Part shown: piece by piece, positions 21,796 to 48,559 of the stretch
Position numbering within the stretch: position 1 is the first letter of the stretch
Layout: every line of letters starts with the position of its first letter
Assembly (NCBI GenBank): GCA_021292105.1
Contig: CM037869.1
Coordinates: 24,566,050 to 24,630,049, forward strand
From: Anadara kagoshimensis
Lineage: Eukaryota; Mollusca; Bivalvia; Arcoida; Arcidae
Direction: 5' to 3'
Length of the DNA stretch: 64,000 nucleotides
Position numbers and translations under genes: made by a program
Notes under the pieces: model-generated
What the model was told of the DNA's origin: nothing
The model's database searches: none
The model's input: the letters and a program-made list of their open reading frames with translations, nothing else

Positions 21796-21843
21796 GATTA
21801 ACAAAGGGATGGACAATTAATTTATATGTTTGTTAATTCTATA

Positions 21844-21945
21844 TTACAAACCAAGATTCAAGGATACTGATAATTTTGAGCGCAAATCATCCAAAACATA
21901 ACCATCTTTTGCAGTCTCAGTTTTCCAGCGACCGTGGGACTTGAA
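21844..21945 (-). pseudogene. Tyrosine recombinase of D, C-terminal piece
   Basis: Minus-strand codons from the 5-bp duplication at 21941-21945 to a TAA at 21844-21846. The piece holds the two C-terminal landmarks of the family: SHGRW (the box-II region after HxxR) and DGYV, whose Tyr is the predicted nucleophile. It continues the frame of the main recombinase ORF at 46692-47609 once X is removed. The two halves lie 24.7 kb apart. Confidence 0.88.
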
Positions 21946-22160
21946 CAGTCCAGGGACTTACTAAATATTGTAATATTACAGTTATCTGTAATATAACAAA
22001 GTAACTAGAGTTATCTCTCTTTACTTTGTAATGTTTGTATTACAAAAAACTGTAATTTAACAATTTTCTATAATGGTTATCTCCCTTTCAAATACAAAAA
22101 ACCTATAATTTAATACATTTGTAACAATTCTCTGTAGTGGTTATTTCCCTTTAATTTTTT
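21946..22160 (+). repeat. Left TIR and subterminal repeats of X
   Basis: The TIR at 21946-21979 is followed by ATATTACAG-TTAT-CTGTAATAT, a 9-bp-stem palindrome. Then come three roughly 63-bp subrepeats marked by GTTAT(C/T)TC(T/C)CTTT at about 22011, 22075 and 22139, and further CTGTAAT copies. The layout is typical of transposase-binding subterminal repeats. Confidence 0.75.
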
Positions 22161-23800
22161 TTTAAATTAACATGAATAAATCAATTATAAGTTGAAAAAG
22201 GTTATTTTTAAAAAAAAAAAGATTTCTTAAATTTCTACAGTAGAATATTAGTATATTCAGCAATTAAAACATCAAATATAACACAGTATCATATGAATAA
22301 TGCCATTTATATTACAGAAATTTTTTTTATTGTTTAATTGACAAATATGGGTCATACAGTACATGTATATAAAACGAAATCTACATTTTAATTTCAAAAG
22401 TCTATGCAGCAGAATATACCATGCAGTCATTCCAAAATAATATTGTAACATTTAACATTGACAATGGTTTTTCTTGTCCGTGGAGACAGATTCTGGAAGG
22501 AAAATGTGACGTTTGAGCATGTTGCAATAGCAATATGTAAACTTTCAGAGCTGATATTATAGTTTTTAAATGGAACCATTTTACAAATTCTATCAGATTT
22601 ATTTCTTAACATCAGATAGGGTCTTGAACCAAGTAGATTTTCTAAAAGTGATTATTCATAATTTTGCACTGGTTATTTTACATGTGTCGGAAAAAATTCC
22701 TAACCTGTAACAGATATTTCATTACGTGCGGAATTCATAACTAAAAGCAATAAAGATATGAAACTTATTTCAGATTACAATGATGGCCTAAGAGTACAGG
22801 GCAAAACTTTATATTAGATAGGAATTTTTAAATCATGTCTTGAAATCCAATATTGAGATAGAATTTTTCAAAGTCTCATATAAGGAACTAACCCCGGTTA
22901 CACCATTTTCTGAAAAACTATGTTGATATGATAAAATTGTATTTGATTTTAGAAAAACAGTGGCATATGTCTTCTTAGTATTAAAATGATGTAAAATTCT
23001 GTTCGGATTTATTCAGTGTTAATAGCGCACAGTTGTTAATTTCTAACCTCCATAATGCCTAACCTCCTAATATGGATAAAGTTCCACGATTTCAGATTGC
23101 ATATAAGCATTTATCCAGGATATATTATCACTAGAGCGGACAAGTTCTTACAAACAACATTTGCCTTTTCTGTAATTAATGCTAAAACCAGCAAAATAAT
23201 AGTCACTTAGAACAGTTTTATATGACTTTATTGTTGAAAGTATGAAATTATCCAGCTGTTATCATAATTTTTTTATTTCAAATTTGGTGTGTGTAATAAT
23301 TCATTTTTTAATTCTGTACATATACATCTTTGTTTTTAAGAGACATAAAAGAGTCTGATTTCAAAATTTCATTTTTGACCATTTAAAGGAATATAAGCAA
23401 TACGATTATTTCTGGAATGACTGCATGAGGTTGGAGTAAGCCAATCTGTCATATGGGCATGAGGGCAAATTAATATATTACTGGATACATGAAAATGAAA
23501 TATAGGCTGGTCTTGGTCATTTCAATTATAATTTTTTTTTTCAGAGTAACAAATCTTTCAACTGACTTTAATACCCATGAAAAAAATGTTATGTTTTAAT
23601 TAATATATGGAAACAAAGTCAAAATACAGTCACATGTTGACTGACGAAAAAAGTGGAAAATGGTTTTAAGATATACAATGGCGTCATTTGTAGCAAAATG
23701 ACACAATAGAAAAAAACATTCATTACCATGTAATAAAACACAGTATAGATTTTATTTACATTCACATGTGACTAGACAAATTTGAATCTTACATTACAGA
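22161..23800. other. Unique AT-rich interior of X
   Basis: No gene, tRNA, repeat array or element end recognised. The longest open frames are about 60 codons. Confidence 0.4.
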
Positions 23801-26040
23801 AATATAATAGAAATATGTAATATTAATACATCCGCTAATTCTGATGATACAATGCTACATATTGAAATGGCCATAAATGATTGAATCTTATATTACAGAA
23901 ATATGTAATATTGATGAATCAACCAATTCTGATCACACAATGCTACATATTGAAATGGCCAAGTTTAATTGAATCTTATATTACAAAAATATGTAATATT
24001 GATGAATTAACCAATTCTGATCATACAATGCTACATATTGAAATGGCCATAGTTGATTGAATCTTATATTACAGAAATATGTAATATTGATGAATCAACC
24101 AATTCTGATCACACAATGCTACATATTGAAATGGCCAAGTTTAATTGAATCTTATATTACAGAAATATGTAATATTGATGAATCAACCAATTCTGATCAC
24201 ACAATGCTACATATTGAAATGGACATAGTTGATTGAATCTTATATTACAGGAATATGTAATATTGATAAATCAACCAATTCTGATCATACAATACTACAT
24301 ATTAAACTGGTCATGTTTGATTCAATCTTATATTACAGAAATATGTAATATTGATGAATCAACCAATTCTGATCATACAATACTACATATTAAACTGGCC
24401 ATGCTTGATTGAATCTTATATTACAGGAATATGTAATATTGATAAATCAACTAATTCTGATCATACAATACTACATATTAAACTGGCCATGCTTGATTGA
24501 ATCTTATATTACAGGAATATGTAATATTGATAAATCAACTAATTCTGATCATACAATACTACATATTAAACTGGCCATGCTTGATTGAATCTTATATTAC
24601 AGAAATATGTAATATTGATAAATCAACCAATTCTGATCATACAATACTACATATTAAACTGGCCATGTTTGATTGAATCTTATATTACAGAAATACATGT
24701 ATGTAATATTGATGAATCAACCAATTCTGATGATACAATGCCACACATTGAAATGGTCATGTTTGATTCAATCTTATATTACAGGAATATGTAATATTGA
24801 TGATTTAGCCAATTCTGATCACACAATGCTACATATTGAAATGGCCTTGTTCGATTGAATCTTATATTACAGGAAAATGTAATATTGATGAATTTGCTAA
24901 TTCTGATCATACAATGCCACACATTGAACTGATCATGTTTGATTCAATGTTATATTACAGAAATATGTAATATTGATGAATCAACAAATTCTGATCATAC
25001 AATGCTACATATTGAAATGGTCATGTTTGATTCAATGTTATATTATAGAAATATGTAATATTGATGAATCAACTAATTCTGATCATGCAATGCTACATTA
25101 TTGAAATGGTCATGTTTGATTCAATCTTATATTACAGAAATATGTAATATTGATGAATCAACCAATTCTGATCATACAATGCCACACATTAAAATGGCCT
25201 TGTTCGATTGAATCTTATATTACAGGAATATGTAATATTGATGAATCAACTAATTCTGATCATATAATGCTACATATTGGAATGGCCATAGTTGATTGAA
25301 TCTTTTATTACAGGAATATGTAATATTGATAAATTAGCCAATTCTGATCATACAATGCTACATATTAAATTGGCCATGTTTGATTAAATCTTATATTACA
25401 GAAATATGTAATATTCATGAATTTGCTAATTCTGATCATACAATGCTACATACTGAAATGGCCATGTTTAATTGAATCTTATATTACAGAAATATGTAAT
25501 ATTGATGAATCAACAAATTCTGATCATACAATGCTACATATTGAAATGGTCATGTTTAATTGAATCTTATATTACAGAAATATGTAATATTGATGAATCA
25601 ACAAATTCTGATCATACAATGCTACATATTGGAATGGCCTTGTTCGATTGAATCTTATTTTACAGGAATATGTAATATTGATGAATTAGCCAATTTTGAT
25701 GATACAATGCCACACATTGAACTGGTCATGTTTGATTTAATCTTATATTACAGAAATATGTAATATGGATGAATTTGCTAATTCTGATCATACAATGCTA
25801 CATATTGAAATGGTCATGTTTGATTCAATCTTATATTACAGAAATATGTAATGTTGATGAATCAACTAATTCTGATCATACAATGCTACATATTGAAATG
25901 GCCTTGTTCGATTGAATCTTATATTACAGAAATATGTAATATTGATGAATCAACCAATTCTGATTACACAATGCTACATATTGAAATGGTCATTTCTGAT
26001 TGAGCCTTATATTACATTATGTAAAATTGTTGAATCAACG
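23801..26040 (+). repeat. 88-bp tandem array inside X, about 25 units
   Basis: Each unit runs GAATCTTATATTACAG, AAATATGTAATATTGATGAA, TC-ACCAATTCTGATCATAC, AATGCTACATATTGAAATGG, (C/T)CATGTTTGATT. It contains ATATTACA, a 6-nt loop and TGTAATAT, the same palindrome found at the ends of X. Units differ by 5-15 per cent, so the array is not freshly expanded. The last unit (about 26010-26095) is diverged. One frame of most units stays open from ATATGT to a TGA. Confidence 0.88.
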
Positions 26041-27603
26041 GACAATGATTTTTCAATATTGGCGAATGAAAAAGAAAAATGTTTTATTTGTAGTTGAAAA
26101 TCGACATGTATTATAATTAACAAAGAAATTATATTTATAGCAGAAAACTATTTTGTTCAAGATATTGTTTTTAGTTTGTCTAGGATTAATTTGCTGGGAA
26201 GATTCAATTTGTCAAAGGGGTATTCATGATAAGGAATCCTTATGTGCTCCAAAATTTTAATTTGTGATGATTAATCTCTACACTCATAATAAATACACAC
26301 ATGTGTAAAATCAAAATAAATTTATTTTTCTTAGTAATATAATTAAAGCAACTTTATCAAGTTAAAATTCATTACATTACATAAGAAATTTAAATTGTAA
26401 GGATTATTAGAGACACATTTCCATGATGAAATTATCACAGATTAAGGAGCACTATCACATTATGTGTATATGGAAAAATTAACCTTTTGATCTGATCAGT
26501 AGAAGTAATGAGTTTTAAATTGATGGACACTTGAAAGTGTACATTCATTGTACTGACATGAGGGTTAAACCTTTTATTGTGTGGCCATTATTTTTTGGTT
26601 TTATAGGTTTGCTATTGTGCCATTTGTGTTACTTAAATTGATATTCAACCCACCAAATGAAAGTTGGTTTATTCTAAACTCATAATCATTTGGTTATTCT
26701 TCCCACCTATTTAAAGATTTATTCTGGGTGTCAATGATGCATGGGTTTTTAAATACCTAAATGGCTATTAAGCTTTCTCCAGTACAATAGAAATGATTGG
26801 AAGGGGTGTGATCTAAAAGGTATAACATATTGTATTATCATAGGAGGCACATTTAGTCCCAGATATACTTGAATGTCTTTCAAAAGTTGGACAATTTTAA
26901 AAAAAAACAGTTTTAAAGATACATAGTGTCAAACTTTTATTAGATATTAATTAGTCCATTGAAACTGGAAGGGGACTATAGGTTTTCTCTCTGGTTGTCC
27001 ACTTGTCTGTCCCTAAACAGTTTTTCTTGATTTGTTGAGATGTTGGATTCATATTTGGTATGAACTTCTGACTCAATTTTGATTAAATTTGACAGCCATG
27101 TGGACCTTTTCAAATTTTCACTTTTTAAATTTTTTTCTGGTTACTTTGTGAACCAGAAATTCTGTCCTCTCTATACCAAGTGCAAGAGGAGGAAGCAGCA
27201 TCTCAAACTTTAAAGTCTTATGCATGATCTGTTTAAAGATAATATCCATGACATCATATTCTCTAACCATAAAGTCACACCAATGCAGTGAACCATGATG
27301 GCAAGATTCTCTCGGAAAATTTATTATATATATTTGCATTTGTACATACATGTATTTTTGATATTATAAAAAGACTATTTTTATTTTTCTTGCATGCTAA
27401 ACAAGCATTTATAAAAAAAATCCATTTTAATTTTGACTCTGTATGCCCCATCTGATTACTACTAACTTATGCAAAGACTTTTTTTTTAGCACATGGGATT
27501 TTTTGTGAAATTTCTTGTTTATTGTTTGCTTGATATCAAAATAAGTTCAATCTCCCTTCTCAACATTTAGAATATAAAAAGTTTGGTTATTGTTATACTC
27601 TTG
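26041..27603. other. Non-coding interior of X
   Basis: AT-rich. A repeat-like piece near 26960-27130 (GGGGACTATAGGTTTTCTC, then TTTTCTTGATTTGTTGAG) looks like a 5' fragment of a common short element. I see no gene. Confidence 0.4.
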
Positions 27604-30600
27604 TTAGCTCACCTGGCCAAAGGCCATGTGAGCTTATGACATGGCGAGGCGTGCGTGCGTGCGTGCGTGCGTGCGTCCGTGCGTGCGTCAGTAAACTTTA
27701 ATCTTCTTCTCCGAAACTACTGGGCCAACTGAAACCAAATTTGCCATGAAAGGTCCTTGACAGAGTCTAACTATAGTTTGTTCAAATCATGACGATCGAA
27801 TATCCAAGATGGCCGCTGTTACTAAAAATAGACAAAACCTAAAAAAATCTTCTTCTCTTGAACCACTCATTGGAGGCAAAAACTGATGTGATATTTGGAT
27901 TCTACATAGTCTTAACCTTTAAGTTTGTTCATTTCATGAAATTTGGTTAAAAAATAGGTTACGCGTTTTTGCGTTTAAATTTGCAAAAATCGTAAAATAT
28001 TTTTAAATTGTTATAACTTGACTATATGACCAGATAATGACATGGGGTTTTCAGTTTTGACATATTCTTGTAATTACCTTCAAAATGGTGTCAAGGTCAA
28101 TAATGAAGGTCATGACCTAATTTTTTACCTTTCTAATATTATTTATTATCTTGAAAACTATTAACTTTTTGTATAGGCATGTATATTAGAATGTTGTAGG
28201 TATTGATACAACGATCATTTTGATGTATAGAAAAAGGTCATGGGTCCAAAGGTCAAGGTCACAGTAGCAAAACAATACCAAAATCGTTAATTATCTTGAA
28301 AACTATAAACTTTTTGTATAGGCATGTATATTGGAATGTTGTTGGTTTTGATGTAACAATCATTTTGATATATAGATTTAGGTCATTGGTTCAAAGGTCA
28401 AGGTCACAGATGCGTAAGAATACTGAAATGGTTCATTATCTTGAAAACTATTAACTTTTTGTATAGGCATGTATATTAGAATGTTGTAGGTATTGATACA
28501 ACGATCATTTTGATGTATAGAAAAAGGTCATGGGTCCAAAGGTCAAGGTCACAGTAGCAAAACAATACCAAAATCGTCAATTATCTTGAAAACTATAAAC
28601 TTTTTGTATGGGCATGTATATTGGAATGTTGTTGGTTTTGATGTAACAATCATTTTGATATATAGATTTAAGTCATTGGTTCAAAGGTCAAGGTCACAGA
28701 TGCGAAAGAATACTGAAATGGTTCATTATCTTGAAAACTATTAACTTTTTGTATAGGCATGTATATTAGAATGTTGTAGGTATTGATACAATGATCATTT
28801 TGATGTATAGGAAAAGGTCATGGGTCCAAAGGTCAAGGTCACAGTAGCGAAACAATACCAAAATTGTTAATTATCTTGAAAACTATAAACTTTTTGTATA
28901 GGCATGTATATTGGAATGTTGTTGGTTTTGATGTAACGATCATTTTGATATATAGACTTAGGTCATTGGTTCAAAGGTCAAGGTCACAGATGGGAAAGAA
29001 TACTGAAAGGTTCATTATCTTGAAAACTATTAACTTTTTGTATAGGCATGTATATTAGAATGTTGTAGGTATTGATACAACAATTATTTTGATGTATAGA
29101 AAAAGGTCATGGGTCCAAAGGTCAAGGTCACAGTAGCAAAATATTACCAAAATCGTTAATTATCTTGAAAACTATAAACTTTTTGTATAGGCATGTATAT
29201 TGGAATGTTGTTGGTTTTGATGTAACGATCATTTTGATATATAGATTTAGGTCATTGGTTCAAAGGTCAAGGTCACAGATGCATAAGAATACTGAAATGG
29301 TTCATTATCTTGAAAACTATTAACTTTTTGTACAGGCATGTATATTAGAATGTTGTAGGTATTGATACAACGATCATTTTGATGTATAGAAAAAGGTCAT
29401 GGGTCCAAAGGTCAAGGTCACAGTAGCAAAACATTACCAAAATCGTTAATTATCTTGAAAACTATAAACTTTTTGTATAGGCATGTATATTGGAATGTTG
29501 TTGGTTTTGATGTAACGATCATTTTGATATATAGATTTAAGTCATTGGTTCAAAGGTCAAGGTCACAGATGCGAAAGAATACTGAAATGGTTCATTATCT
29601 TGAAAACTATTAACTTTTTGTATAGGCATGTATATTAGAATGTTGTAGGTATTGATACAACGATCATTTTGATGTATAGAAAAAGGTCATGGGTCCAAAG
29701 GTCAAGGTCACAGTAGCAAAACATTACCAAAATCGTTAATTATCTTGAAAACTATAAACTTTTTGTATAGGCATGTATATTGGAATGTTGTTGGTTTTGA
29801 TGTAACGATCATTTTGATATATAGATTTAGGTCATTGGTTCAAAGGTCAAGGTCACAGATGCATAAGAATACTAAAATGGTTCATTATCTTGAAAACTAT
29901 TAACTTTTTGTATAGGCATGTATATTAGAATGTTGTAGGTATTGATACAACGATCATTTTGATGCATAGAAAAAGGTCATGGGTCCAAAGGTCAAGGTCA
30001 CAGCAGCAAAACAATACCAAAATCGTTAATTATCTTGAAAACTATAAACTTTTTGTATGGGCATGTATATTGGAATGTTGTTGGTTTTGATGTAACAATC
30101 ATTTTGATATATAGATTTAAGTCATTGGTTCAAAGGTCAAGGTCACAGATGCGAAAGAATACTGAAATGGTTCATTATCTTGAAAACTATTAACTTTTTG
30201 TATAGGCATGTATATTAGAATGTTGTAGGTATTGATACAACGATCATTTTGATGTATAGAAAAAGGTCATGGGTCCAAAGGTCAAGGTCACAGTAGCAAA
30301 ATAATACCAAAATTGTTAATTATCTCGAAAACTATAAACTTTTTATATAGACATTTATATTAGAATATTGTAGGTTTTGATGTAACAATCATTTTGATAT
30401 ATAGATTTAAGTCATTGGTTTAAAGGTCAAGGTCACAGATGGGAAAGAATACTGAAATGGTTCATTATCTTGAAAACTATTAACTTTTTGTACAGGCATG
30501 TATATTAGAATGTTTTAGGTATTGATACAATGATCATTTTGATGTATAGAAAAATGTCATGGGTCCAAAGGTCAAGGTCACAGTAACAAAACAATACCAA

Positions 30601-30966
30601 AATCGTTAATTATCTCGAAAACTATAAACTTTTTATATAGACATTTATATTATAGAAAAGGTCATAGGTCCAAAGGTCAAGGTCACGGTTGCAAAACAAT
30701 ACCAAAAAGATTCATTATCTCGAAAACTATGAATTTTTTGTATAGGCATGTATATTAGAATATTGTTGGTATTGATGCAATCATCATTTTGATATATAGA
30801 TTATGGTCATTGGTTCGAAGGTCAAGGTCACAGATGGAAGTAGCAAGTTTCATAAATATCTAAATATCCACATCGGAGTTATTGCTCCTTAAATGTAGTA
30901 TTTATTGTGTTTTTGTGTTGTTAACGGCCCAGGTGAGCGGTACAGGCCCTATTGGGCCTCTTGTTA
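27604..30966 (+). mobile_element. Hairpin-ended array element, family HB, copy 1 (3.4 kb)
   Basis: The left end AGCTCACCTGGCC-AAA-GGCCATGTGAGCT is a 13-bp stem with one mismatch, followed by (GTGC)n. The right end is CAGGTGAGC, then AGGCCCTATTGGGCCT (stem) and CTTGTT. Between about 28080 and 30840 lie about 19 half-units of about 144 bp, alternating between two subtypes, so the higher-order period is about 288 bp. Every half-unit ends in GGTCAAGGTCA. Structure (palindromic ends, internal tandem core, microsatellite) resembles pearl/HINE-like elements of bivalves; that is inference. Confidence 0.78.
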
Positions 30967-32078
30967 AAACTGGTGACACTAGAATAAAACTACAGGAGGT
31001 GGTCAATAATGTCCAACACAGAATTGAGCTCTCCACCCCAATGATTCTAAATACAAATGACTTTGGAACAGGGATTCCCATTTAAACCAGAGGAAAGGCA
31101 TTTATCTTAAAGAACAAAACAACATCTGCTACTTTCCTTATCTTTTAAATTTTAAAATACCTGTTTAGAGAAGCTATATTGTGACATTACAGTGTTGATG
31201 AAATTTTATCTTGATTCAGACATCATCCTTTCTAGTACTATAGCTAGGTTGGAGACATGATAATTTTATATTAAACAAGGTGTTCAGAGAACACTATCCC
31301 CCACCCCACCTCTGCAAAGGCAAACATCAGTGAATTCCATACAAGGTGAAATATGTTTTATGGAACACTGGTGTTAAATAAGTGGCCCATTTATTAGATT
31401 GAAAACCACAACAAATTAAAGTACACCTTATTTGCATATTTTATAAATATTACGCAAACTAAAATTTAATGGAAAATTCTATTACATATGATTAATTCCC
31501 ACAGTTTTATTTCCTATGTTTAAAATTCTGATGAAATTGGTTCATAAATATGGCTGTAATGGTCATATATATTTTGCAAACTAAAATTTTTTCAGAAAAT
31601 CCAGTTAAATATGTTTAATACCCGAGTTCTATTTTCTATATATATTGAAAATATCGATGAAATCGGTACATAAATAAGGCTGCAACAGCCATATATATGA
31701 TTTTGTTATTTATAATAATGGTGGCCATCTTGGATATGCTATAAGGCTGTTGAGCAATTCCACACCAATCACTATCATAACGAAGCAACTGACCAAGTTT
31801 CAGCTCAATCTGATGTAGGGTTTTCTCTTTTAAATGCACGGAAACCAACTAGGACGGACCCCCGACACACACACACAAAGCAGTATTACTATATCCCCCC
31901 TCACCACTGATGGCGGGGGTGGGGGGGGGATAATAATATTAATACATAAAGTGCATCAAGAAAAAACCAGGATCATGGTAAACATGATCTATTCCAAGAT
32001 AAATATACTTACATGTATTATAAAAATGTGTTTATTGAAATGTTGAAACATCACTTTATGTTTGCATATTAACCCTTT
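30967..32078. other. Non-coding; fragment of another hairpin-ended element
   Basis: Positions about 31500-31935 hold a truncated short element ending ACTATATCCCCCCTC...GGCGGGGGTGGGGGG, a terminal stem like that of family HA. Tandem sub-blocks (GATGAAAT-GGT-CATAAAT-GGCTG-AA) precede it. I see no gene. Confidence 0.45.
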
Positions 32079-33713
32079 AATGCATCCACGATTTGGTATA
32101 AGATAAGGCCATAAATACTACTTTACCCCTGCAATGTTTTGCTGGTGCGGACTACGAAGCATTTTTCAATGCAAAACATGGTAGTGTGTACACTTGAAGG
32201 TCTACACAATGCAGATTTTGCATTCGGTATGTAAAATATCATCTATACTTTCATCTGTACCAAACTTATACCACAAAACCCCCTATTTCTTTCACAATTA
32301 GTGTTTTAAATATGTATTAACCGGGGGACATGACTTTAGAATCGCCCGGGGGACATGATCAGAGGTAAATTACAGACAATGCTGTTGATTTTCACAAATA
32401 ATTTCAGAAAACACACCACCAAATGCCACGAACGCTTGATCACATCATAAGTTAACTGTTTGGGCAATGTGCACCAATTTTTACAGAGATACGCATTCAT
32501 ATTGCTTTGTGAAAGTTTAGTCAAATCTTTTATACGCGTTTGAGGATACCAATAGGGTACACGTATATAATAATTGATGTTTTTGAATAAATATATGTAC
32601 ACATTAAAAAACTGTGACTGAAATAAAGATGATTAACATAACAATCAAGAATATTTCACTTAAAATTAACTAGATGATGATGATGATGGTGATTATTATC
32701 ATTATACATGTATTTGCCGTCAGTTTGGGTGTGAATGCAGTCCCACTCAAAGCTTTAATGACATTCGCTTGCCGAGGATACGTGGTTTTCTCTGAGAGTA
32801 CTATGGTTTTCCCCATCATTCCTAAGCTGATCGCCCCTATAGAAGTGAAATAATGTTTAACAGCATTCAACCAACTAAACACCTGTATTGCAATCCTAAT
32901 GATTTTCTAATATCAGGTATATGGTCGTATATGGTTCATATACCAATGATAGGTGCATATAGTTGGACCTTTTGAAAGTTTACCAATGAGTAACGAAAAG
33001 AAACAGAAGTTGGCCTGCCGTCTGGCTGAGAAATTCATAGCCCTTGGTCGAAAAGCAAGCGAGATATTGATATCATTCGATGAGATATTTCACCCATTCA
33101 TTAGCTTTGTGTTAAACTTTCGACAGGTATGTACGGCTGTAGGTCAAGAGTCGTGACCAAATTAAATGGAAAAAGCTTACTTGTATGCAAGGGGGATTAC
33201 AAGTCAGCTTCACTGACAGTTCTAGTTGGTACTGGGCATTAGGAGGTAGTAACCGGTGTAATGAAGAATTTTGATCCGGGGTTCATTTTTCAACGTTGAA
33301 TATTTAGCCAGGGGTGCTTTTTTGACAAAAATTCTTAAATTTATACCCGGGGTCATTTTCAACAGGTTGATAATTATTTTTTTCTATAAATATTATCTCA
33401 ATTTGTTGAAAATTTACCCTGTTTAATATTGCCTCTTCCCACAAACACAGAGTTTTGGTCTGTCTTCCGGACTCGAATGTACACTGTAGCCATTAACGAT
33501 ATGACACACCGTCGATTTTGCAGCTATACGTAATACATAATAGGACAGTAAAATTTACAACAATGACAAAATTCAACTTTACGGAAGTCTATTGGGTTCA
33601 ATTTGGTAGAACAAAAAGCATTCGAGTAATAACGCTTAATTTTTGCGAAATAACACATTTCTTTCTCATAAAAACGTGTACTTTTCGCCAAGGTTACGTA
33701 GCGAAAATTGTTA

Positions 33714-35168: not shown

Positions 35169-36424
35169 AATGCAATGCACGTGCCATGTTATTTAAAAAT
35201 TGTTAACTATGTTGCTTACTATTGCCATATACCACTTTTTGAATGTATTTTATGCTCAAATTTAAAAAGTGGTATATGACACTATTAACCAGTATATTGA
35301 TCCAATGTATCATTAAGTTAATGGTTACTAAATTATCTTACTGACATCAGAATATACAAACTTTTAAACAAACGAAAAAATATCGACATAGCATAAGTTA
35401 AGCTTATTAGTGTGTAATCACTAGTTTCAATATACATCTGTTCTATAAGTTTTTGTAATGTATTCTATTAATGGGATATGTGTTCTTAATGTCCATTTCA
35501 TTAGTTTGTTGTAGCTCGTCATTGTGTTGTGTGTTATTATGCTTTTTTCAAACTTTCGTACAACTGTATGCATTTAGTAATTATACAATTATCTAATTGT
35601 AAAACACACGGGTTTAAGTTCGGGTATATCAAAGTATTTTACAGTGGTCCTGTTTTCTCTAAATATTTATGCTATTTTTCACACCTGTTTACTGAAAGTT
35701 GTCTATTTTAAAATTTTGAGTATGTTGAAGTTGCTGTTTGGTTAGTTTATTAAAAACCAATTGTAATTGACAACCACTATCTTAAAATGGGTACGGAACC
35801 ATAATTTCATAAAATGTTTTTTATTTTAGTTTTTATGAACACTATATGCATTTTAATTGTGCAGAGGGGAAATGTTCTGTTCAAAAAGGACAATGTTTAA
35901 ATGTTCAAGTCCCAAAATCGCTTCTTGTACAGTTAACCACACCATTATTATTATTTATGCATGTCCTATCTATGTCGTGTCGTTTATCTATTGGCCTCGA
36001 GCATGCAAGTGTAGTGAATTATTGCTTCTACTGGTTCTATTTAACTTCACCAGTTTCAGCCGTCATTTCTCTCTCGTTAGTTTAAATTTACCTCATTCAT
36101 TTACAATGCATGTAACGGTGCTTTTTGTTATCTAACTTTTTTCAATTTATATTTAATGTCAATGGGTCACTAATTGAAAAAATGACAGGAAAAAGTTATT
36201 TGTTACTTTTTCAGTTATTCTACTTTTGAGAAAAAAATCAAATTTACTTACATAATTCCCAGAAATTATTGAGAATTTTTATGAAAATATTTCGAACACA
36301 TTGGTATTTCTGGAAATAGTGGACTAACAAAATATTACTTTTTATGTATTCATTGTGATTAATGAATAGTTTAACAAAATCGGTTTCCATCAGAATTCCT
36401 CAATATTTTCTAGGAACACTATAT
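35169..36424. other. Non-coding spacer of the 7-kb structure
   Basis: It contains one strong hairpin at about 35226-35279 (CATATACCACTTTTT, 22-24-nt loop, complement). No gene is recognised. Overlapping 79- and 92-codon frames near 35846-36135 have no recognisable domain. Confidence 0.4.
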
Positions 36425-36635
36425 ATTGGAGTTTAACACCCCAGTCAAGATTCTTTAATTTATATCAAGGCGGTCAGTCAAGAAATGGTAGAGAAAGACC
36501 AGAGTGTGCAAAGAAAACCACTGACCTTCTGCAAGCTACAAACTTCTCACACTACAATCTGTCCCGATTGGGATTCGAACCTTGGCTGTGAGGCAATCCG
36601 TCTCTAACCACTTGGCTACCAAGTTACCCATATAT
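36425..36635 (-). mobile_element. tRNA-derived SINE, family S2 (inverted)
   Basis: The right end reads on the plus strand as GGGATTCGAACC and CCACTTGGCTACC, the complement of tRNA-like B and A boxes. The body GTTTAACACCCCAGTCAAGA is partly shared with S1, but the rest (AAAACCACTGACCTTCTGCA) differs. I therefore list it as a separate family. Confidence 0.6.
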
Positions 36636-37146
36636 ATCACACTGTATGCTGTTGTCGTTTAAGATTCAACACAACTGGTCTCAATTTTCAACGTTGAAAA
36701 ATAAGCCCCCCCCCCAAAGAATTGCTTTGGAAGACAGAAATGTTGATCATGTTATCAAATAATTCGAACCCGAAGATACACATACATGGCGATGCAAGAT
36801 TTGCAACAAAACCTTTCGTACTCAAGTCATGTGAGTCTACACACATGCTTTGCCACAAAGATGCTTCATCCAAAAGCAAATGTTTAGCATTATCACAAGT
36901 TCGTGGCAGTTTCTGAGAAGAATGACTTTTTGTAAACGGAGAAACTGTAAATCGACGTCTCTTTGAAGAAGGCTGACATATTTTGGCTTGAGTTTATGGG
37001 GTGAAGCAAGAGACTAGTCTCTTTTTGTTTGGCATATTGTCTGAAAACAAAAGTTTTCTTTTCAAACCATATACAGTGATATACCTGATATTAGAAAAAT
37101 CAACAATAAAATTAACTTATTTTCAAATATGACCGCGAAATACTTC

Positions 37147-38096
37147 TATAGTCCGATCACTTATTTGGTGATGAATACCGATGTGGCCTTAAAAAGATCG
37201 TGGATAACTTACCTCAAATTTTATTAATGCTATATGTAGATCTGTTATTTTTATAACATGTGTTTAAATAATTTGATCAAATTCCTTATATTAAGTCTAA
37301 AAATCAAATAAAACCAGTTTTTATCCGACGCGCATCTGAATTCAGATAATGCGTATCACGTAGTAAAATGCATTATCGTCAATAACTTCATCTTTTGAGA
37401 TAAAAATCGTGGCTTAGTTAGATGAGCTTGAAGGTTTTGCAGTTTCAAAACATTAAATTAAAAAATTGCGTCGTTCTAGGTCAAACATGTGTAATAAATG
37501 AATATCATTCATTATTTTGATGTTTGTGCTGTTTTACCTGTTGTCCATTCATAAAAAGTGCAATGGGTTAGCCCGTGACGTATACTGGTTAGAAATAGAA
37601 ACACCTGTATAAACCCGTATGGCGTGAATAGGTATTAGCCAATCAGAACCCAATTATGAATAACGTATATGAATGAAACTGTCGAATATGCCATATCAAC
37701 ATATGAGAGGGACAACAGCTACCTTTCAATTAATTGCTAAATTTTGACTCCGAAAACTAAAAAATTACAGTGACTATTAATAATTTAAGCATGAAGATAG
37801 AAACATAGTATTTTTTAATACTTATCTTTAAAACAAGACTGCAAACGAACAAGTATTAATTTCTCAACAAACTTTTATCGAAAAAGTTTATTTAAATTTA
37901 TTCATATAAATTAAAAGCAAAAAATTGAAAAGTTGAGAATATTAGCAAAAAATATTCAAAATATGAAAAAATATGTTCTAATAACACGTGTGAAATTTCA
38001 AGTCTATTGAAGTTATATCAAGTAAGATATCTAAGTTTGAATCACACACCCATTCAAAACATGTTTTTTCATCACTGAAAATGTGATCGGACTATA
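37147..38096. mobile_element. Element H, copy 2, uninterrupted (about 950 bp)
   Basis: 14-bp perfect TIRs TATAGTCCGATCAC and complement; the outer TA may be the target duplication. It sits inside the right arm of the 7-kb inverted repeat, which resumes on both sides. It is important as the empty-site reference: it lacks M at about 37535 and D at about 37596. No ORF and no recognised domain. Confidence 0.82.
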
Positions 38097-39041
38097 ACAA
38101 TGCATATACAAAGAGCTGAATTGCAAACATGCTATATTCACGTTGACTTCAGTTAAACATTATTTCACTTATGTTGAGGCGATTAGCTTAGAAAAAATAG
38201 AGAAACCTCAGTATTCTAAGAAAAAATAACATATCCTCGGCACTCGAAATGTCATTTTTGTTCACTAGAAAATGCTTTGCATGGGATTGATAAAAAGGCA
38301 CTACATTCGCACCCGAACTGAAATGATAATAATGATAATACATGCAATACTAATCATCATTATTTAGTTTAACTCCATAGATTCCTAATCTGGAAGCTGT
38401 CAGTAAAACAGCACCATGCAGAGAGCATATGTATGCCAATACACAGGTGGATATTCTTGATTGTGATGTTATCTTTATTGAAAAATAAACCAATCTATTT
38501 CAGTCACAATTTTGTAAAATATAAATATATTTATTCAAAAACATCAATTATTATGTAGTGTACTTTATTGGTATCCTCAAACGCATATAAAAGTTTGACT
38601 AACCTTTCCCAAAGCAATATGAATGCGTATCTATGCAGACATAGGTGCACATTGCCCAAACAGTTAACTTATGATGTGATCAAGCATTCATGGCATTTGG
38701 CAGTGTGTTTTCTTAAATTATTTGTAAAAATCAACAGCACTGTCTGTAATTTAACTCTGATCATGTCCCCCGGGCGATTCCAAAGTCATCCCCCCCGGTT
38801 GATACATATTTAAAACACTAATTGTGAAAGAAATAGGGGGTTTTGTGGTATAAGTTTGGTACAGATGAAAGTATAGATGATATTTTACATACCGAATGCA
38901 AAATCTGCATTGTGTAGATCTTCAAGTGTACACATTACCACGTTTTGCATTGAAAAATGCTTCGTAGTCCGCACCAGCAAAACATTGCAGGGGTAAAGTA
39001 GTATTTATGGCCTTATCTTATACCAAATCGTAGATGCATTG

Positions 39042-40359
39042 CCTCACAGACATATCGTAATGTTCCGTGAGGCAATAATTATGACCGAAATATGTTATTT
39101 TGGTACAAAACGAAAGCATTTTGAACCCACCTGTCTGAATTCCCGCTTCAAATCATGTCCCCCGATATGACATAATCATGTCCCCTAATGCGAAGCAGTA
39201 CAGGGTGTATCTGGAGACTTGTACCCTAGAAAAATATGGTTTTGCAGGAAATCAAAGTTAAGTATCAATGAAAGATGCCGCAAAAAGATAATTAAAAAAT
39301 TTTGCATGTTTTTACAAAAGATAAAAAGAACAAATTTAGTAGTTATTAGGTCTAAAATATAAAAATTGGCATACCATTGATGAGAAAAATGTGTTTTATT
39401 TTGTTAAAGCTGATCATTATTTTGACATAAATATTTAAGTTTTCGCTGAAATTTTACCATTACTAAACCACACATAAATAAACTGTTTTTCCAAAATTTT
39501 TATTTAAAAATATTTTCAATAAAATTATGGTTGCCATGGCAATAAAAACCGTGCAAAAACGAAGATTAAGAGTAAATTGCTTTTTAATTTCAATATATTT
39601 TGATATTTTTACATGTTGGCAAGTGTAAAATATATGACTTTTGATGCTTTTACAATTTCTGTTTTCACCAAAAACTATGAATTCTGAATTTTGTAGTATT
39701 TTCGGCCAATCATTTAATAACAACATTGCAAAAGCCATTTTTGAAAAAGTTTGGTCGATAAATTTGAGTCCAAACTCCAATGATATCAATGGTTGGATAA
39801 ATACTAAATTGTGTATAATAGGAATCTCATAGTCTGCTTTCACTAAAATGGTACTTTGAAACAAAGAAATCCGTTACCATGGTAACCAAAAGTGCGATAA
39901 CTGCGTTACACAAGTGATGAATTAATTGTGTAATTTGACTTTTTCTCATAATTCCTTGAGCTTGGGTTGATATAAAACTCAAATATGTTATTTGTGTTGA
40001 CTTGAATATTAGAAGAAGATAAATAGATGGGCGGAAAAAATCCAAATTTGCATGTTTCACCCAAAATAGGAACTCTGAAAATAATAGATTTTCGATCAAT
40101 TATACAAAATAAAGCCCACGCAAATGCTTTTATTTTGATATATCTTAAGTTTTAAAAGCTGAAACCGTAACTTTGATTCCGAAACTTTAACCATACAAAT
40201 GGACTGATCATTGTTAAACATTTTTTTAAAAATTAGCAACCAAAACAGAAAACTGATCACAACTAGTGTAGTTCAAACGGTCACTACATATTCTCAATGT
40301 CGGGGTCGAGAAAACCATCACTTACATCATATATAGTATGACCAACTCAACACAGAGTA
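39042..40359. other. Non-coding; unrecognised minus-strand open frames
   Basis: It starts with a hairpin GCCTCAC...GTGAGGC (39039-39085) and two ATCATGTCCCC motifs. Minus-strand frames of 133 and 90 codons (39463-39864, 39827-40099) overlap in different phases. They are rich in Phe/Ile/Leu/Lys as expected by chance in AT-rich DNA, and I recognise no domain. Confidence 0.4.
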
Positions 40360-40670
40360 ATGATGTTACGTCCCAGTCAAGAATATTTCACTTATATTGA
40401 GACGTCACCAGCTATATAAGCGAAGGTGCTGATGGCATTATACAGCAGGGTTCTTTATCGTAGCGAGCCTGTCGTGACACGGGACCTTGTCTATTTTAAG
40501 TTCCTATCCAAAAGAACCGTTACTTTAATTTCCTAATGCCGAGTGTTTGGTGAAAAAAAAGTCAATATCCACTTTTTAGTCTTCGGTCGGACCCAGTCGT
40601 GATTCAAACCCACGACCTCCCATTTACAGAGCGAGCACTCTATCAACTGTGCTACCGCAGTGGTTGTACA
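40360..40670 (-). mobile_element. tRNA-derived SINE, family S1 (inverted)
   Basis: On the plus strand: TTACGTCCCAGTCAAGAATA, then GCTGATGGCATTATACAGC, then GTGATTCAAACCC, then AGCGAGCACTCTATCAACTG. This is a full-length complement of S1 with recognisable tRNA-like head. Confidence 0.75.
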
Positions 40671-41039
40671 GTTAAGAGTTTTATAATCAGTGGTCTTAAT
40701 ATATTTATGTCTTTTCCTATATTGATTCAATCACCTTTTGTTGTGTTGTCGGTTGTGTCCTGTTTTTGGTTACATTGTATGTTGTCAAGCATGTTTTACT
40801 ACCCGGTCAAAATTCTGTCATTTATTATAACGAGGCCGTCAGATAAGGATGGTGGAGGCCACCGGATTGTTTTGAAAAAAAAAACCTTCGGCAAGGGATG
40901 ACAAACATTCTCACATTTTCACATTAGGATGTGTTCCAAGTAGGGTTTGAACGTAGGCACGTGATCAAATATAACAAGGTTTAGTCTTAGCTCTCTCTCT
41001 CTTTGTCTCTAAATTTACTAAAATATAAGTGTGTTGAAG

Positions 41040-41054
41040 TTTCATTTTTCTTGA

Positions 41055-41097
<43 letters not shown>

Positions 41098-41330
41098 TTA
41101 AAATATAAATGTGTCATGTGCTACTTTTGAATTTTTATAAAATAATATAATTCAAAAGTAGCACAAATTGCATGTGCTACTTTTGAATTACATATATTAT
41201 TTATAAAAATTCAAAAGTAGCACATGACAGTGTGCTGAAGTTACCAGTCTTAATATTCTTCTCTCTCCTCTCCCTCTCTCTCAAAGAAGTTTCATTTCTC
41301 TTGATATCTCTCTCTCTCTCTCTTGACATA
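41040..41330. repeat. (CT)n tracts flanking a 118-bp palindrome
   Basis: (CT)n at about 41055-41095 and about 41308-41322, with shorter CT runs near 41260-41282. Between them, 41112-41229 is a near-perfect palindrome: TGTCATGTGCTACTTTTGAA...TTCAAAAGTAGCACATGACA, with two further inverted GTGCTACTTTTGAATT boxes inside. The palindrome looks like a tiny foldback element that inserted into a CT microsatellite. Confidence 0.75.
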
Positions 41331-41451
41331 TAGACTAGGCAGGTTGAATATATTTTTCTAACTGTTCTAGTGGGTAATGACTTTTGAAAATCCCAAATAC
41401 CGGTATTGTGGTTTTTGCTTTACTTTTATTTTCTATAGCTTCACATTTTAT

Positions 41452-42172
41452 TAAGAAGCTCAATTGGGCCCGATACACTCACCTGATAAATGACTAGCTA
41501 AAACGTTTTTAAAAAAAATAAAATCTGAAACTCCAATGTCAAAATCTTCACCTATAGTGAAATTTTAAAGCTTTTCCAGATAATTATAATTATTTCAGTA
41601 TTTTTTCGCATCTGTTACCTTCACCTTTGAATCCATGACCTGTACTTATATTTCGAAATGATCATTACATCAACAGCAACAATATTCTAATACATGTATG
41701 TACCTTTATAAAAAGTTAATAGTTTTCAAGATAATTAATAAAAGCATAAGCCTGACCTTTGACCTTGCACCATTTTCAAGATTATTACAAGAATATGTAA
41801 AAACTGAATACTCCATGACCTTATCTGTTCAAATAGTCAAGTTACTACAATTTGAAGCTATTTTACAGTTTTTTCAACATTAAATGCAAAAAAAAAAAAA
41901 AAAAAACAACTTAACCCTTTTTTTCTCAATTTCACAAAATGAATAAACTACAGGCATTAGATTCTAGAGAAGCCAATTCACATCAGATTTTTTCTTCAGA
42001 TATCAGTTTCGGAGAAGTTTTTTTCCAGAGTTTTGCAGCCAAGTTCACCTTGACCTAATCTTTGTAGCCATGGCAATATCCCAATAAATCATATGAATTT
42101 CTGACCAAGATCCATTGAAATTTTTCTGGTAGTTTTAGAGGAGAAAATGAAAATAGAGGTTAACGACGCATC
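41452..42172 (-). mobile_element. Array element family HB, copy 3, truncated
   Basis: It begins with the degraded hairpin CTCAATTGGGCCCGATACACTCACCTGATAA, about one array unit (TTCACCTTTGAATCCATGAC), then the unique part down to GTTAACGACGCATCAAC. The terminal GCTCACATG hairpin is missing. It is more diverged than the other copies, so older. Confidence 0.65.
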
Positions 42173-44154
42173 AACATTACAGCAGGGAAAATACAGGATC
42201 TTTCAGATCATTTTCCTCATATTTATGTCATAGACTGGCTTGGCATCCCTCATATATGCAACTTTTTATCAACATTCATATTCAAAAAGTATATTTTGCA
42301 TTTGCCATTTTATTATTCTACGGAATTGCTGATTGAAACATACATCATGCATTGTAGTAAAAACATATGATGCTGCTTCATGGAGAGCTGGTCATGGTTC
42401 CCACACTTGACTTTATTTAAAATTCCCTGCCAATTCTCTGACCTTAGAAAAATTCCTGATACTTCCCAGATGTATGGGGACTATGTTGATGGTCCATTTG
42501 AATCTTAATATATATTTTAGAGAAAACCATAAAAACAAGTAAATTACCCATTTAAAATATGTGTATGTTATCCTCTGCTATGAATAAAAGTTAAAAACAA
42601 TGTAAAAATTAACATTTAAAAATCGAGTCAGTCCAATAATGTTCATACAGTTAGAAAATGCACAAATGTTTGTTTAGTCTCAACCTTTTACATGTTCTTA
42701 TCAATCAAATTTTCAATTTTAATGCTTGAAATTTTGAAAAAATATTTTTGTCATAGAAGCCATATACCCCTATCTGGCTTATGCACTGACTATGTCTAAC
42801 TGCCTCTAACAGGGTTAGCTCGTTTGAGCCAAAACATAAGTCAATCTTAGAAATTAGGAGCCAATTTTAAAATGTAGGAGCCAATTTATACATTAAAGAG
42901 TTAGAAATACTGAGGAACTAAGAGCAACAAAAAATGTATCAAATATAGTTCTATTCTGCAGTATAGATTGTTTTCAGTTGATAGTTTGTAACTTATGTTT
43001 TAGGTTTTCATACTTTTGTATAAAAGAATAGAAAAATCAGTGATTTTTGTCTGCCTCATTATGAAATTGATAAAAATTTGGAACAAAAATATGTCAAAGG
43101 CTATTTTTGGAGCCAGAAATTATAAAAACAAGCAATTAGCTAAATTCACAAATGATCAGAGCTAACACTGCTCTTATATACATTTTTAGGATAAAGTAGA
43201 ACTTTGATAACTCGGAGTGCATAGGGATTTGTTGGTACTTTTGAATTATTCGGGTGTTTGAGGTTTTGTAGTTGAAGAGTCACCTTGCCAGAAAGAAATG
43301 ACTTTTATATTCTTGACAGTTAATCTTGCATGATAAACCAGTACTCTGTGCACTAATGCAATTGACACAATTGTTTTCATTAACATTGTGAGTAGTTACA
43401 CTGTATTGCACATATGGTAGTGAAAACAGTCTTTTGACTGTAAATAATAACATTGACCACAGGTATAACTCTCTTTTTACTTTATATAGAAAACAGATAC
43501 AATATTGACTTGAAGATATCTGTGGTAATCAAGATATTGAAGTTTGATTGTATTTAGCCTATCATGTATTCAAACATCCTATCAAATATAAATGCTGTAG
43601 CTTTCAAACTGAAGTAGAAGAGAGCTTTGCAAGCCATGAAATCCAACCCAGACAGATGAATGGACAGACACATCCAAATCAATACATTTACCCCCAAACC
43701 CGCTTTTTGTTGAATATGCATTAGAATGCAGTAGCCAAACTAGGACCCCAATGTGGGACCATCTTATACTAGAAGGCAGCTCTACCTGTCTAAAACATTG
43801 AGTACAGCCCACTAGAGAATTTTGAAAAAAATATCAAACTGCAAAGCTTACTATAAAATAACTGTACCATGTACAACCTCACCCCACCCCACCCAATTAT
43901 TGACTTGCTTATTTTAATGAATACATAATGGTGCTTTTTGTACATTTGATTTTCTAACTTTTGACAATTTAAGGGTAAAATATGATGAGTACATACTGTC
44001 TATATGAGATGTACATAAAAATATTATGAAACATAAAATACTTGTATGAAACTGTTACTTGATTTCACCGTGTATTGCTTGGCCTTAGGTGGACATGATA
44101 TGTTGTATCGGGGGTGGGGGGTGGGGGGGGGGGGGTTGCAGTGATGGTGCAGAA
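42173..44154. other. Non-coding interior of X
   Basis: No gene or repeat array recognised. A G-run (about 44110-44138, mostly G with single T/A breaks) could form a G-quadruplex. Confidence 0.4.
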
Positions 44155-44705
44155 ATTTTCCTATGCATTAGGCTGATGACATTATATATACTTTAGGATT
44201 CTTTATCGTGCCACACCTTCCATGACAGGCCCTGTTTACTTTAAGTTCCTATCCGAAAAAACTGTGACTTTCATTTTGTAATGCCGAGGCCATGCATCAT
44301 GATTTGATGGTGATTCATTATGGTAGACTCACATACCAAATATTAGTTTAATATCTGCAGGTGTTTAGAGTTGAGTTGAGTAATGTTGTTAAATGTCCTA
44401 GTCAAAAATATTTCAATTATATCGAGACATCACCAGCTATAAGTGATGGTGCAGAAATTCTGCCTTTGCATTAGGCTGATGACATAATATATACAGTAGG
44501 ATTCTTTATTGTGCCACACCTTCCATGACACGGGCCCTGTTTACTTTAAGTTCCTATCCGAAAGAACTGTGACTTTCGTTTTGTAATGCCCAGTGCCTTG
44601 TGCCCAGTGCCTTGCAAAAGAACATTCACTACCCACTTTAAAGTCTTTAATCAGACCCTGTTGGACTTTGATCCCACAACCTCTCACTGAGCTACCGCAG
44701 TGGTA
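44155..44705 (-). mobile_element. tRNA-derived SINE S1, full copy plus partial tandem body
   Basis: Full inverted copy at about 44380-44705 (ATATCGAGACATCACCAGCT, then GATTCTTTATTGTGCCACAC, then CTCACTGAGCTACCGC). A partial body at about 44140-44290 repeats TGATGGTGCAGAAATT and TTCTTTATCGTGCCACACC. The head of the full copy is damaged. Confidence 0.7.
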
Positions 44706-45019
44706 TCCTGCCAGCCTGCTAACACACATGCCCAACCACATCACCAAATTAATGGTCAAGTTTAACTTTGTTCAACTCAACTAAAAATAGGGAGGAATGT
44801 GTCAGAATATGCTTAAGATAGGTGATCAAGTTAAGAACCAATCAGCAATACAAAGTGAGGGGTTTGATTCTTGTTAAGTACATAAGATGTAACCTTAGGT
44901 AGTCGCTCCATTCACACATTCTGTTGATAAATTTATCCGTGCCAGGATACAAGTGGAAACGGCAACTGCTGAGAGAACTACATATATCACATACAAGCTG
45001 TGTGATGTGCATATTACAG

Positions 45020-45230
45020 GTTGACTGATTGAGTGGGGTTTTATGTCCTAGTCAAGAACATTTCACTTATATCAAGACATCACCAGGTATAGGACAAGTG
45101 GCTGAAAGTTTTACCTTTGCAGTGCAATAAGATCAATGTGCAGGGAGGGTATTGTAATGTGCCATGCTTGTCCTGAATGGGCATTAGTTTATAAGGTCTC
45201 TTCTGTGGGCATCAGTTTTTATATTGTTGA
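45020..45230 (-). mobile_element. SINE S1 body fragment
   Basis: TTTTATGTCCTAGTCAAGAA, then TATCAAGACATCACCAGGTAT, then CAGTGCAATAAGATCAATG; ends within the body near TATAAGGTCTCTTC. The head is absent. Confidence 0.6.
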
Positions 45231-46480
45231 CTATACATGTGTAAAGTTATTTAAGACAAAACTTGTCCAAGTTTGTAGAAATTGTCATTGATATTAAACT
45301 GGTCAGTTTTAATGTTTACCTACACTACAGGGGGTGACCTTTTTTAAATTGCCTTAGCTATTAATTTAATGTAGCATGAAATGTCATTTCCCATCCTTTG
45401 GAGCTTGTACATAGAGAGTATAGAATCTGTAGAACATCAGACCTCAAAATTGAATTACTGTATTGTTAATTTAACTTTGTATTAACAAAAAGACTTTTTT
45501 CAGGCATCAGTGATTTCTTAGTTTGGTCCTACTGACTTTAAAATGAGGATACATCAATATTCCTTAGCTGTCACCACTTACACATCCCAATAAATTCAAA
45601 TTCAATCCAATGTCTCTGTCTATTACCTCTCATAACATAGTATTCTTTGTTATAAAATTGTAAAGTAATTAAAAGAATGCCAGAAGGGTGACAATTTTTC
45701 CCTTATGAGTGAAAATGTGAATTATTTATTTTTTAAATAAAAAAAAAATTATAAATCAAAATGAAAACAAATATTCAAGAGTTACATCAATTTGCATGTA
45801 GACAAGAAAAAAAATGCAATGGTCAAACCATGATTTTCAGAATTAATCAACTTCATCCTTTCATGTATTTCAGATAAATGATGAAGTGTGGTCTTAAGAT
45901 TGGAATAATTTATTTCTTATTAATTTCACAATTCATCATGACTATTGGTAGCTTGATTTATTGCAAAATTAGAAATCACCCACTCAATGTTGTTATAAAC
46001 CTTTGTCTATATAGATAATGTTGAATTCCATACTCTAATATAGATAAAAACTTATAAACCCTGATATCACAAAAAATAAACACACACCCATATAAAGTAC
46101 AAACCACTGATTTACTTTGATGTCAGAAGATACCATGAGGCACACATGAGTTGTTTCCCTTGACAAAATGTTTTTGAAATCAGGGGGTCATTTTTTCAGA
46201 GCACATTTCACTCAAAAACTAGACATTTCACCAATAACAGGGATATAGGACCATGTATTGCAAACTTTGAATTTCAACAGAAAATTATGTATAAAGACCA
46301 AAAAATTTTCTTTACCTGTTAATTTTAAGAAAATAGATGGACTAGCCTTTTCATGAGGTCAGATTTAACTGATTTTTACCATTCCTGTAGGTGTTACCAT
46401 GTCCATTCATGTTCACTGATGCAAGTGATGATTGAAGTGACACACCAGTATTTATATCCATTGCAACTTGATATCATAAA
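45231..46480. other. Non-coding interior of X
   Basis: AT-rich; no gene, array or element ends recognised. Confidence 0.4.
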
Positions 46481-46686
46481 CTTAAAGTATATAGTATTTT
46501 AGTGTAAATAAACACTTATATTACAGTTTTCTGTAATACAGAATCTTAAATTACATAAATCAATAATATACTATATTACTGATTTGTGTAATATAGTGGT
46601 TAGATTACAGTATTCTGTAAGATTACACTTTCCTGTAATCTTACAGATTCAAGTAATATTACAGTTTTTAGTAAGTCCCTGGACTG
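46481..46686 (-). repeat. Right TIR and subterminal palindromes of X
   Basis: TIR 46653-46686. Proximal to it lie ATTACAG-TTTT-CTGTAAT (about 46524), ATTACAG-TATT-CTGTAA (about 46605) and GTAAGATTACA-CTTTCC-TGTAATCTTAC (about 46618-46645), which has an 11-bp perfect stem. It shares motifs but not overall sequence with the left subterminal region. Confidence 0.75.
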
Positions 46687-48070: not shown

Positions 48071-48096
48071 TAATACTATACAAAAACAAATATACA

Positions 48097-48555: not shown

Positions 48556-48559
48556 AAAA

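Follow-up and report, generated by a model that had tools for sequence, protein, structure and literature searches.

Element X and the retroelement that it interrupts

The stretch of DNA analyzed here, 64,000 nucleotides from the bivalve Anadara kagoshimensis (assembly GCA_021292105.1, contig CM037869.1, forward-strand positions 24,566,050 to 24,630,049; hereafter the window), contains a complete transposable element with terminal inverted repeats (TIRs), designated X, which lies inside the tyrosine-recombinase gene of a host retroelement. X measures 24,741 bp and is one copy of a giant family that has 61 further paired elements in the genome. Its outer parts are the following, with positions given in the window.

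21946..46686, no strand: X, complete TIR element
21941..21945, no strand: left copy of the target site duplication, TTGAA (5 bp)
46687..46691, no strand: right copy of the target site duplication, TTGAA (5 bp)
21946..21965, plus strand: left 20-bp TIR (L end)
46667..46686, minus strand: right 20-bp TIR (R end)
21966..22115 (limits approximate), plus strand: left subterminal region with CTGTAATATTACAG-like repeats
46517..46666 (limits approximate), minus strand: right subterminal region, likewise bearing CTGTAATATTACAG-like repeats

A direct end search placed CAGTCCAGGGACTTACTAAA at 21946 on the plus strand and at 46686 on the minus strand with TTGAA on each flank, and thereby bore out the inverted termini that had been noticed in an earlier reading of the letters alone (the sequence-only reading); the perfect TIR stretch is 20 bp, with 0 mismatches between the two ends, and not 34 bp as given there. 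The likeness of the two ends reaches 58 bp at 84% identity (TTGAA counted) and continues over approximately 170 bp at approximately 66%. No third place in the window matched the X end at up to three mismatches, and 0 were found in 100 shuffles; an inner TIR copy was not detected inside X at up to five mismatches of 20. The subterminal repeat CTGTAATATTACAG at up to two mismatches gave 12 matches in the 64 kb, all of which are located in the two ends of X or in an 88-bp tandem array within it.

The host element and its gene parts comprise:

21065..51095, minus strand: host PAT-like (DIRS-order) element, 5,285 bp after subtraction of X and one TTGAA
50944-51095: host repeat A1
21665-21805: host repeat B1
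21510-21664: host repeat A2
21065-21205: host repeat B2
46692..47609, minus strand: tyrosine-recombinase gene, N-terminal and central part
21844..21945, minus strand: tyrosine-recombinase gene, C-terminal part (HGRW box, catalytic Tyr)

X cuts the recombinase gene between the HxxR box and the catalytic tyrosine. When the flanks are joined without X and one TTGAA, a single open frame (...SDRLF-KSHGRW...DGYV...) is obtained, and the earlier claim that X splits one recombinase gene in which SDRLF joins KSHGRW and DGYV without a gap is therefore upheld. The joined protein scored 31.9 bits with the Pfam domain Phage_integrase, which is above the cut-off, while the right part alone scored 25.9 bits, below it. 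Moreover, no length change across the junction (42 residues) was seen in 117 of the 120 listed relatives (the best 120 of 1,228), the remaining three differing by +2, -10, and -13. Chance ends or an assembly artefact are ruled out by this reading frame together with the other copies of the family.

Six-frame Pfam scans detected RVT_1, RVT_3 (weak, 14.7 bits, below the cut-off), Dam, and Phage_integrase in the host, and its split direct repeats are ordered A1 / B1-A2-B2. PAT-like elements of the DIRS order combine split direct repeats, reverse transcriptase, RNase H, methylase, and tyrosine recombinase with the absence of a target duplication. All of these features were found in the host, RNase H solely as the weak RVT_3 match. 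The label PAT-like is taken from the A1 / B1-A2-B2 layout and the Dam-type methylase; the sequence-only reading had named a DIRS element, of which the order stands, but the split direct repeats and the methylase make PAT-like the better fit. Among the matches listed, the recombinase relatives with names are nearly all bivalves, one brittle star among them, and the relatives of the reverse-transcriptase frame come from mussel, brittle star, coral, and symbiont bins. The host retroelement is young: its A repeats differ by 1 substitution in 152 aligned bases and its B repeats by 0 in 140, with 3 and 2 gap columns, respectively. The host has as its target a TA-flanked TIR repeat (window positions 21065-21205 and 51096-51350) that is also carried by X (37149-38096, about 0.95 kb), so that a paralogous empty site for the retroelement is present within the window; this uninterrupted relative inside X marks the host borders (84% over 293 columns).

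A family of 62 paired elements

The genome survey covered a single assembly of 1.115 Gb in 36 contigs. The 20-mer TIR at up to three mismatches matched 200 places, as compared with 35 for the reversed pattern, and longer probes, which complete the set for close ends only, gave 71 places for the L end and 72 for the R end (39-mer), each with 0 in the control. Two further R ends from the 20-mer search bring the R total to 74. The 71 L and 74 R ends, which exclude the possibility that the termini have no second copy in the genome, form 62 L-R pairs that span 18,130 to 29,111 bp with a median of 22,021 bp; no pair among the 62 is below 18,130 bp, and outward-facing end pairs within 60 kb numbered 0. 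The search for further loci with both inverted termini, as proposed in the sequence-only reading, thus turned one locus into a family. All 30 of the end loci fetched matched the L or R end of X; the match extends over almost all of the 1.5 kb in 29 loci and is broken by a deletion in the other, L004. The family end sequence is written as CAGTCCAGGGACTTAC; L and R ends start with CAG, with CGG at two variant places.

Exact 5-bp duplications with differing flanks were present in all 15 elements that were read at both flanks (10-15 bases), which rules out the 3-bp duplication with A-CAG ends that the window alone would permit. The duplications are TTAAA, ATTAT (twice), TACAA (twice), TTATA, TTACA, GGTAC, ATACC, TTTCA, AAACA, TTTAC, TTTAT, TATAT, and TTGAA, amounting to 13 different sequences. 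Of 26 target sites (13 from paired elements and a further 13 from single ends), 23 have a T in second or an A in fourth position, against about 14 expected from base composition, and 9 have both bases, against about 3 expected. Inverted repeats at both ends in 62 pairs and a duplication of fixed length at different sites are the marks of cut-and-paste TIR elements.

Two L-end subtypes were observed, CTAAA (42 of 71) and CAAAA (29 of 71), with element medians of 22.0 and 22.2 kb, which suggests two subfamilies whose elements are similarly large. In addition, three family ends occur within about 44 kb at C12:16129720-16172990 and likewise at C9:346510-390395; in both clusters a second, one-ended element adjoins or lies inside a complete one.

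A common core of approximately 19 kb

X was compared with seven other copies, read in pieces (8 of the 62 elements). Matches shorter than 300 bp or below 85% were left out, or in another set those shorter than 150 bp, and segments covered for less than 60 or 70% in a copy were left out of the pairwise divergence. The following features were delineated inside X.

23802..26039, no strand: tandem array of some 25 units of 88 bp each; counterparts of varying length in the seven other copies
27607..30957, plus strand: Y1 insertion, private to X among the examined copies; empty site in 7 of 7 other copies
33716..35165, minus strand: Y2, second, inverted copy of the Y1 repeat family; empty site in 7 of 7 other copies
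37149..38094, no strand: M, TA-flanked TIR insertion resembling a miniature inverted-repeat transposable element; related to the target repeat of the host
38142..39040, no strand: inverted duplication in the core, partner at 32079-32871; 93.6% over 547 bp, 78% over 116 bp
40355..40665, minus strand: old tRNA-type short interspersed element (SINE) in the core, 16.2% from the leave-one-out consensus
44140..44690, minus strand: two old SINE pieces in the core, 16.0-17.2% from the leave-one-out consensus

The seven other copies match most of the X core, each with its own local deletions and insertions; for example, nothing in the copy on contig C8 corresponds to about X 39462-41238, and Y-like repeats occupy other sites in the copies on C8 and C14. 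The eight copies differ from one another by 0.47-3.1% pairwise substitutions over 8-13 kb aligned, with 0.90% between X and the copy on C5. The site of M is empty in 4 of the 7 other copies; in the remaining 3, the probe did not retrieve it. Together, Y1, Y2, and M account for about 5,747 bp, leaving a core of about 18,994 bp. The 88-bp array, which bears a TGTAATATT motif that resembles the subterminal repeats, makes up 2.26 kb of this core. The divergence of the SINEs inside X is within the range of the copies outside X (12.8-26.1%), and their position in segments common to the copies indicates that they belonged to the unit before its spread. An interior probe (42200-42900) yielded 149 candidates, of which the best 40 are 97-100% alike, plus one 46-bp piece; 38 of these 40 scored matches lie at most 15 kb from an R end, and the other two lie on the inner side of the L ends at C11:37760057 and C15:3558826.

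The presence of a core of about 19 kb, old SINEs included, in the examined copies indicates that X has not grown to this size after landing. The proposal that the element grew by nested insertion therefore applies to 5.75 kb, contributed by three insertions, but not to the common core.

Members of the Y repeat family have fixed ends (GCTCACCTG... and ...GGGCCTCTTGTT) that enclose tandem units of 145 bp. The family, of which a remnant is located at 41551-42170, inserts at T-rich sites without a clear duplication and looks Helitron/pearl-like. At L048:5225-8326, the left end of the copy on C14 is interrupted by a separate 3.1-kb TIR insertion with AAGGGACACTGAAGTCTAG ends, which gave no Pfam domain.

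Coding capacity and the search for an enzyme

X was scanned in six frames with Pfam, with stops masked and the 145-bp arrays at 28143-30836 and 33815-34603 left out. The same method that detects the four host domains in the flanks found no transposase domain in X, where one sub-threshold match to a repeat carried no meaning, and no polymerase, integrase, RAG, or helicase domain in the scanned stretches. The earlier remark that X has no recognizable transposase is thereby confirmed, while the idea that it lost its enzyme is unsupported, as these scans revealed no transposase remnant in X. The longest open reading frame (ORF) in the X core encodes 136 amino acids (aa), a length reached in 17 of 100 shuffles, and a search with it gave no homologue at E 0.001 (6 candidates). 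Among the seven other copies, in which piece borders may cut ORFs, the longest are of 173 and 153 aa in the 88-bp array and of 147 aa outside it, and ORFs of 125-147 aa recur in common segments of several copies. In the frames of the inverted duplication, compared by eye, 10 of 72 residues differ despite 93.6% DNA identity, which is not like protein conservation.

Pfam scans of extra stretches in the other copies, as far as these were covered, likewise revealed no transposase. The 28.7-kb copy was rejected as an autonomous candidate, as it consists of the same core with nested and tandem material; its matches to the CBS domain (33.8 and 26.9 bits against a cut-off of 24, in two of three forward frames) are read as chance, since no single stretch passes alone and they are located in a tandemly repeated SINE piece. 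The variant end C[AG]GTCCAGGGAATTAC was likewise discarded as a lead to an autonomous relative, being present at 3 places only, two of which are a segmental duplicate. The two duplicate loci, L049 (C7:39947280-39957279) and L050 (C7:40470300-40476299), lie on one contig, are 99.9% identical, and each hold about 145 bp of the family R end as a fragment; in L049, a 497-aa frame that by eye resembles a G-protein-coupled receptor is located 1.7 kb inside this fragment. Exact matches to the TIR pattern were not found in viral and prokaryotic contigs.

None of the 150 scored hAT domains (the best 150 of 724) lies within 61 kb of a family end; the comparison used 143 of the 145 ends, without the two duplicate variant ends on C7. 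Several of the scored hAT domains are in long open frames, which reach 769 aa. Of two hAT loci that were fetched, one has best-candidate ends CAGGCATGGG with an 8-bp duplication and the other has no ends; family-type ends were found at neither. Twelve hAT places share one score and a 722-aa frame, which suggests a recently active autonomous hAT family that may be a possible helper.

Other features of the window

A reverse transcriptase (RVT_1, E 2.3e-23) at 62854-63999 runs to the window end and belongs to a separate element. The tRNA-type SINE of X also occurs at 3171-3475, 10106-10410, 17301-17614, 19425-19745, and 53556-53801, and an Rfam tRNA match is located at 19674-19744.

Discussion

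X is probably a copy of a giant non-autonomous TIR family of the cut-and-paste type that carries no recognizable gene and is moved whole in trans. Since 62 elements with the same L and R ends lie at separate places, and the eight compared differ by 0.5-3%, the family has recently spread at full length, and the evidence supports the suggestion of a very large non-autonomous element and extends it to 62 paired elements of 18.1-29.1 kb. In the mechanism proposed, another element would provide a transposase in trans; this enzyme would bind to the subterminal CTGTAATATTACAG-like repeats and to the 20-bp TIR, would excise the whole unit, and would reinsert it at A+T-rich 5-bp sites of the nTnAn type. 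The copy number of cut-and-paste elements is usually raised by gap repair after excision or by transposition during replication.

Several observations weigh against this interpretation. Nine L and 12 R ends have no partner, and about 20 of the 200 places found with the 20-mer are explained neither by L or R ends nor by the control level. The preference for nTnAn sites is modest: of the 26 sites, 23 have one or both of the bases and 9 have both. The 12 core ORFs of at least 80 aa are a borderline count, reached in 7 of 100 shuffles, and the Pfam and ORF tests are blind to an unfamiliar enzyme encoded in short exons. An intact gene could sit in the 54 elements other than the 8 compared, and in the other copies that were read the Pfam scans covered part of the extra stretches (three of six frames for the insert of the C7 copy). 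Finally, the genome search found no transposase partner with family ends, and we infer the trans-acting enzyme.

The main rival explanations concern the origin and the content of the core. The family may have been founded by a captured host segment, when two ends of a smaller element moved together with the DNA between them; this macrotransposon origin, which is compatible with movement of a gene-less unit in trans, is a tentative possibility that we judge to fall somewhat short of probable. The core resembles ordinary genomic DNA, without recognized genes and with old SINEs in common with the window flanks, but X lacks the third, inner TIR (at up to five mismatches of 20) that a recent macrotransposon should keep, and none of the best 40 of the 149 interior matches is a core locus outside an element. 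It is rather unlikely that we are dealing with a size-maintaining transposon, in which the 19 kb would be kept because it is required, either for a recombinase in short exons or as length or arrays needed for excision or re-replication. This reading is based on the finding that all 62 paired copies are 18-29 kb long and none is shorter, the reverse of the usual pattern in hAT and other cut-and-paste families; no size-maintaining DNA transposon was met in the literature searched. The chances are poorer still for an autonomous giant transposon, of which the core would encode a recombinase unrecognized because of short exons or of a family without a profile, accounting for the full length. The lack of pairs below 18 kb, the recent spread, the recurrent ORFs of 125-147 aa, and the borderline ORF count all speak for such an element, but the longest core ORF is matched by shuffled sequence and has no homologue, the six frames of X contain no Pfam domain, and the core bears old SINEs. 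Growth after landing, from a short element in the recombinase gene that was lengthened by later insertions, retains hardly any probability: three insertions (5.75 kb) are not seen in the other copies, but the remaining 19 kb is common to the examined copies, which refutes such growth for the core. Moreover, the host, with 0 and 1 substitutions between its repeats, is too young for SINEs diverged by about 16% to have decayed in place.

A decayed giant element of another class (Polinton/Maverick, RAG-like or Transib, or Helitron) would match the size range, and yet is very improbable. Helitrons make neither TIRs nor a duplication, and Polintons/Mavericks make a 6-bp duplication and carry pPolB and integrase genes, whereas the family has TIRs and 5-bp duplications and the scanned stretches of X contain no polymerase, integrase, RAG, or helicase domain; Polinton/Maverick is ruled out on these grounds. 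The piggyBac and other TTAA families are excluded by the duplications, which are 5 bp in 15 of 15 elements and not TTAA. RAG-like elements of molluscs do make 5-bp duplications (PMC7204232), but the ends of RAG-like and Transib elements begin with an invariant CAC according to the same source, and this rule excludes them for a family with CAG ends.

With a non-autonomous family moved in trans as the preferred reading, the nature of the enzyme can be narrowed tentatively. The ends of the giant family fit those of hAT elements, and a hAT5-type transposase, predicted from ends, duplication length, and site preference, would be the best fit, at roughly even chances. Membership of hAT5 is not claimed. 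hAT5 transposons are a few kb long. They and the giant family are alike in 5-bp duplications (15 of 15 elements here), terminal CAG, and subterminal repeats, and may also be alike in A+T-rich nTnAn-like sites, for which the preference here is modest; in contrast, the giant family spans 18-29 kb, and neither a hAT transposase nor short derivatives were found for it. That hAT families with 5-bp duplications exist, with hAT5 as a named group, is documented (PMC12730594, which cites Kapitonov and Jurka 2007).

Other known systems offer partial likenesses. The Ac macrotransposons of maize, which reportedly are of the hAT type and are referred to in PMC10175614, can be likened to the giant family together with the Ds elements. 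In Ds, as is proposed for the giant family, only the ends and subterminal repeats are common with the source of the enzyme, filler DNA can be carried, and movement occurs in trans, but the Ds classes described are heterogeneous and for the most part measure about 0.4 to 1 kb or more (PMC3260210), whereas one core of about 19 kb is found at 62 places here. The fungal ToxTA (formerly ToxhAT) is a 14-kb non-autonomous TIR element that moves with its cargo as a unit; unlike the giant family, it is single copy per genome, carries genes, and makes a 2-bp TA duplication (PMC12506042). Teratorn and Polintons share the size class of at least 10 kb but encode polymerases, recombinases, or viral genes (PMC6431247, PMC10175614), none of which was recognized in the giant family. 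The Tc1-Mariner elements of a seed beetle are likewise a non-autonomous TIR family, but at 0.65-2.2 kb and often palindromic; in that study, non-autonomous elements of 1-2 kb are already termed "large" (PMC10849321).

The giant family is surprising because jumping DNA that lacks an enzyme is usually small, and we agree with the sequence-only reading that so long a TIR unit without a recognizable transposase is unusual, non-autonomous families being normally short. DNA transposition is described as falling significantly above a cargo of 6 kb, with artificial constructs of 100-200 kb noted (PMC6431247). No description of a comparable giant gene-less family was recognized in the open-licence literature searched. 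A unit of about 19 kb that is non-coding by the tests used, has recently spread, and is long in all 62 pairs does not fall within the usual range. X itself is a clean case in which the gene of a young retroelement has been interrupted and empty sites can be read at several nested levels. With a unit of about 19 kb without recognizable genes at no fewer than 62 natural places, each duplication read being clean, the size limit of transposition becomes testable in an animal genome, and the family shows how non-coding DNA of the size of a gene cluster can be moved and copied.

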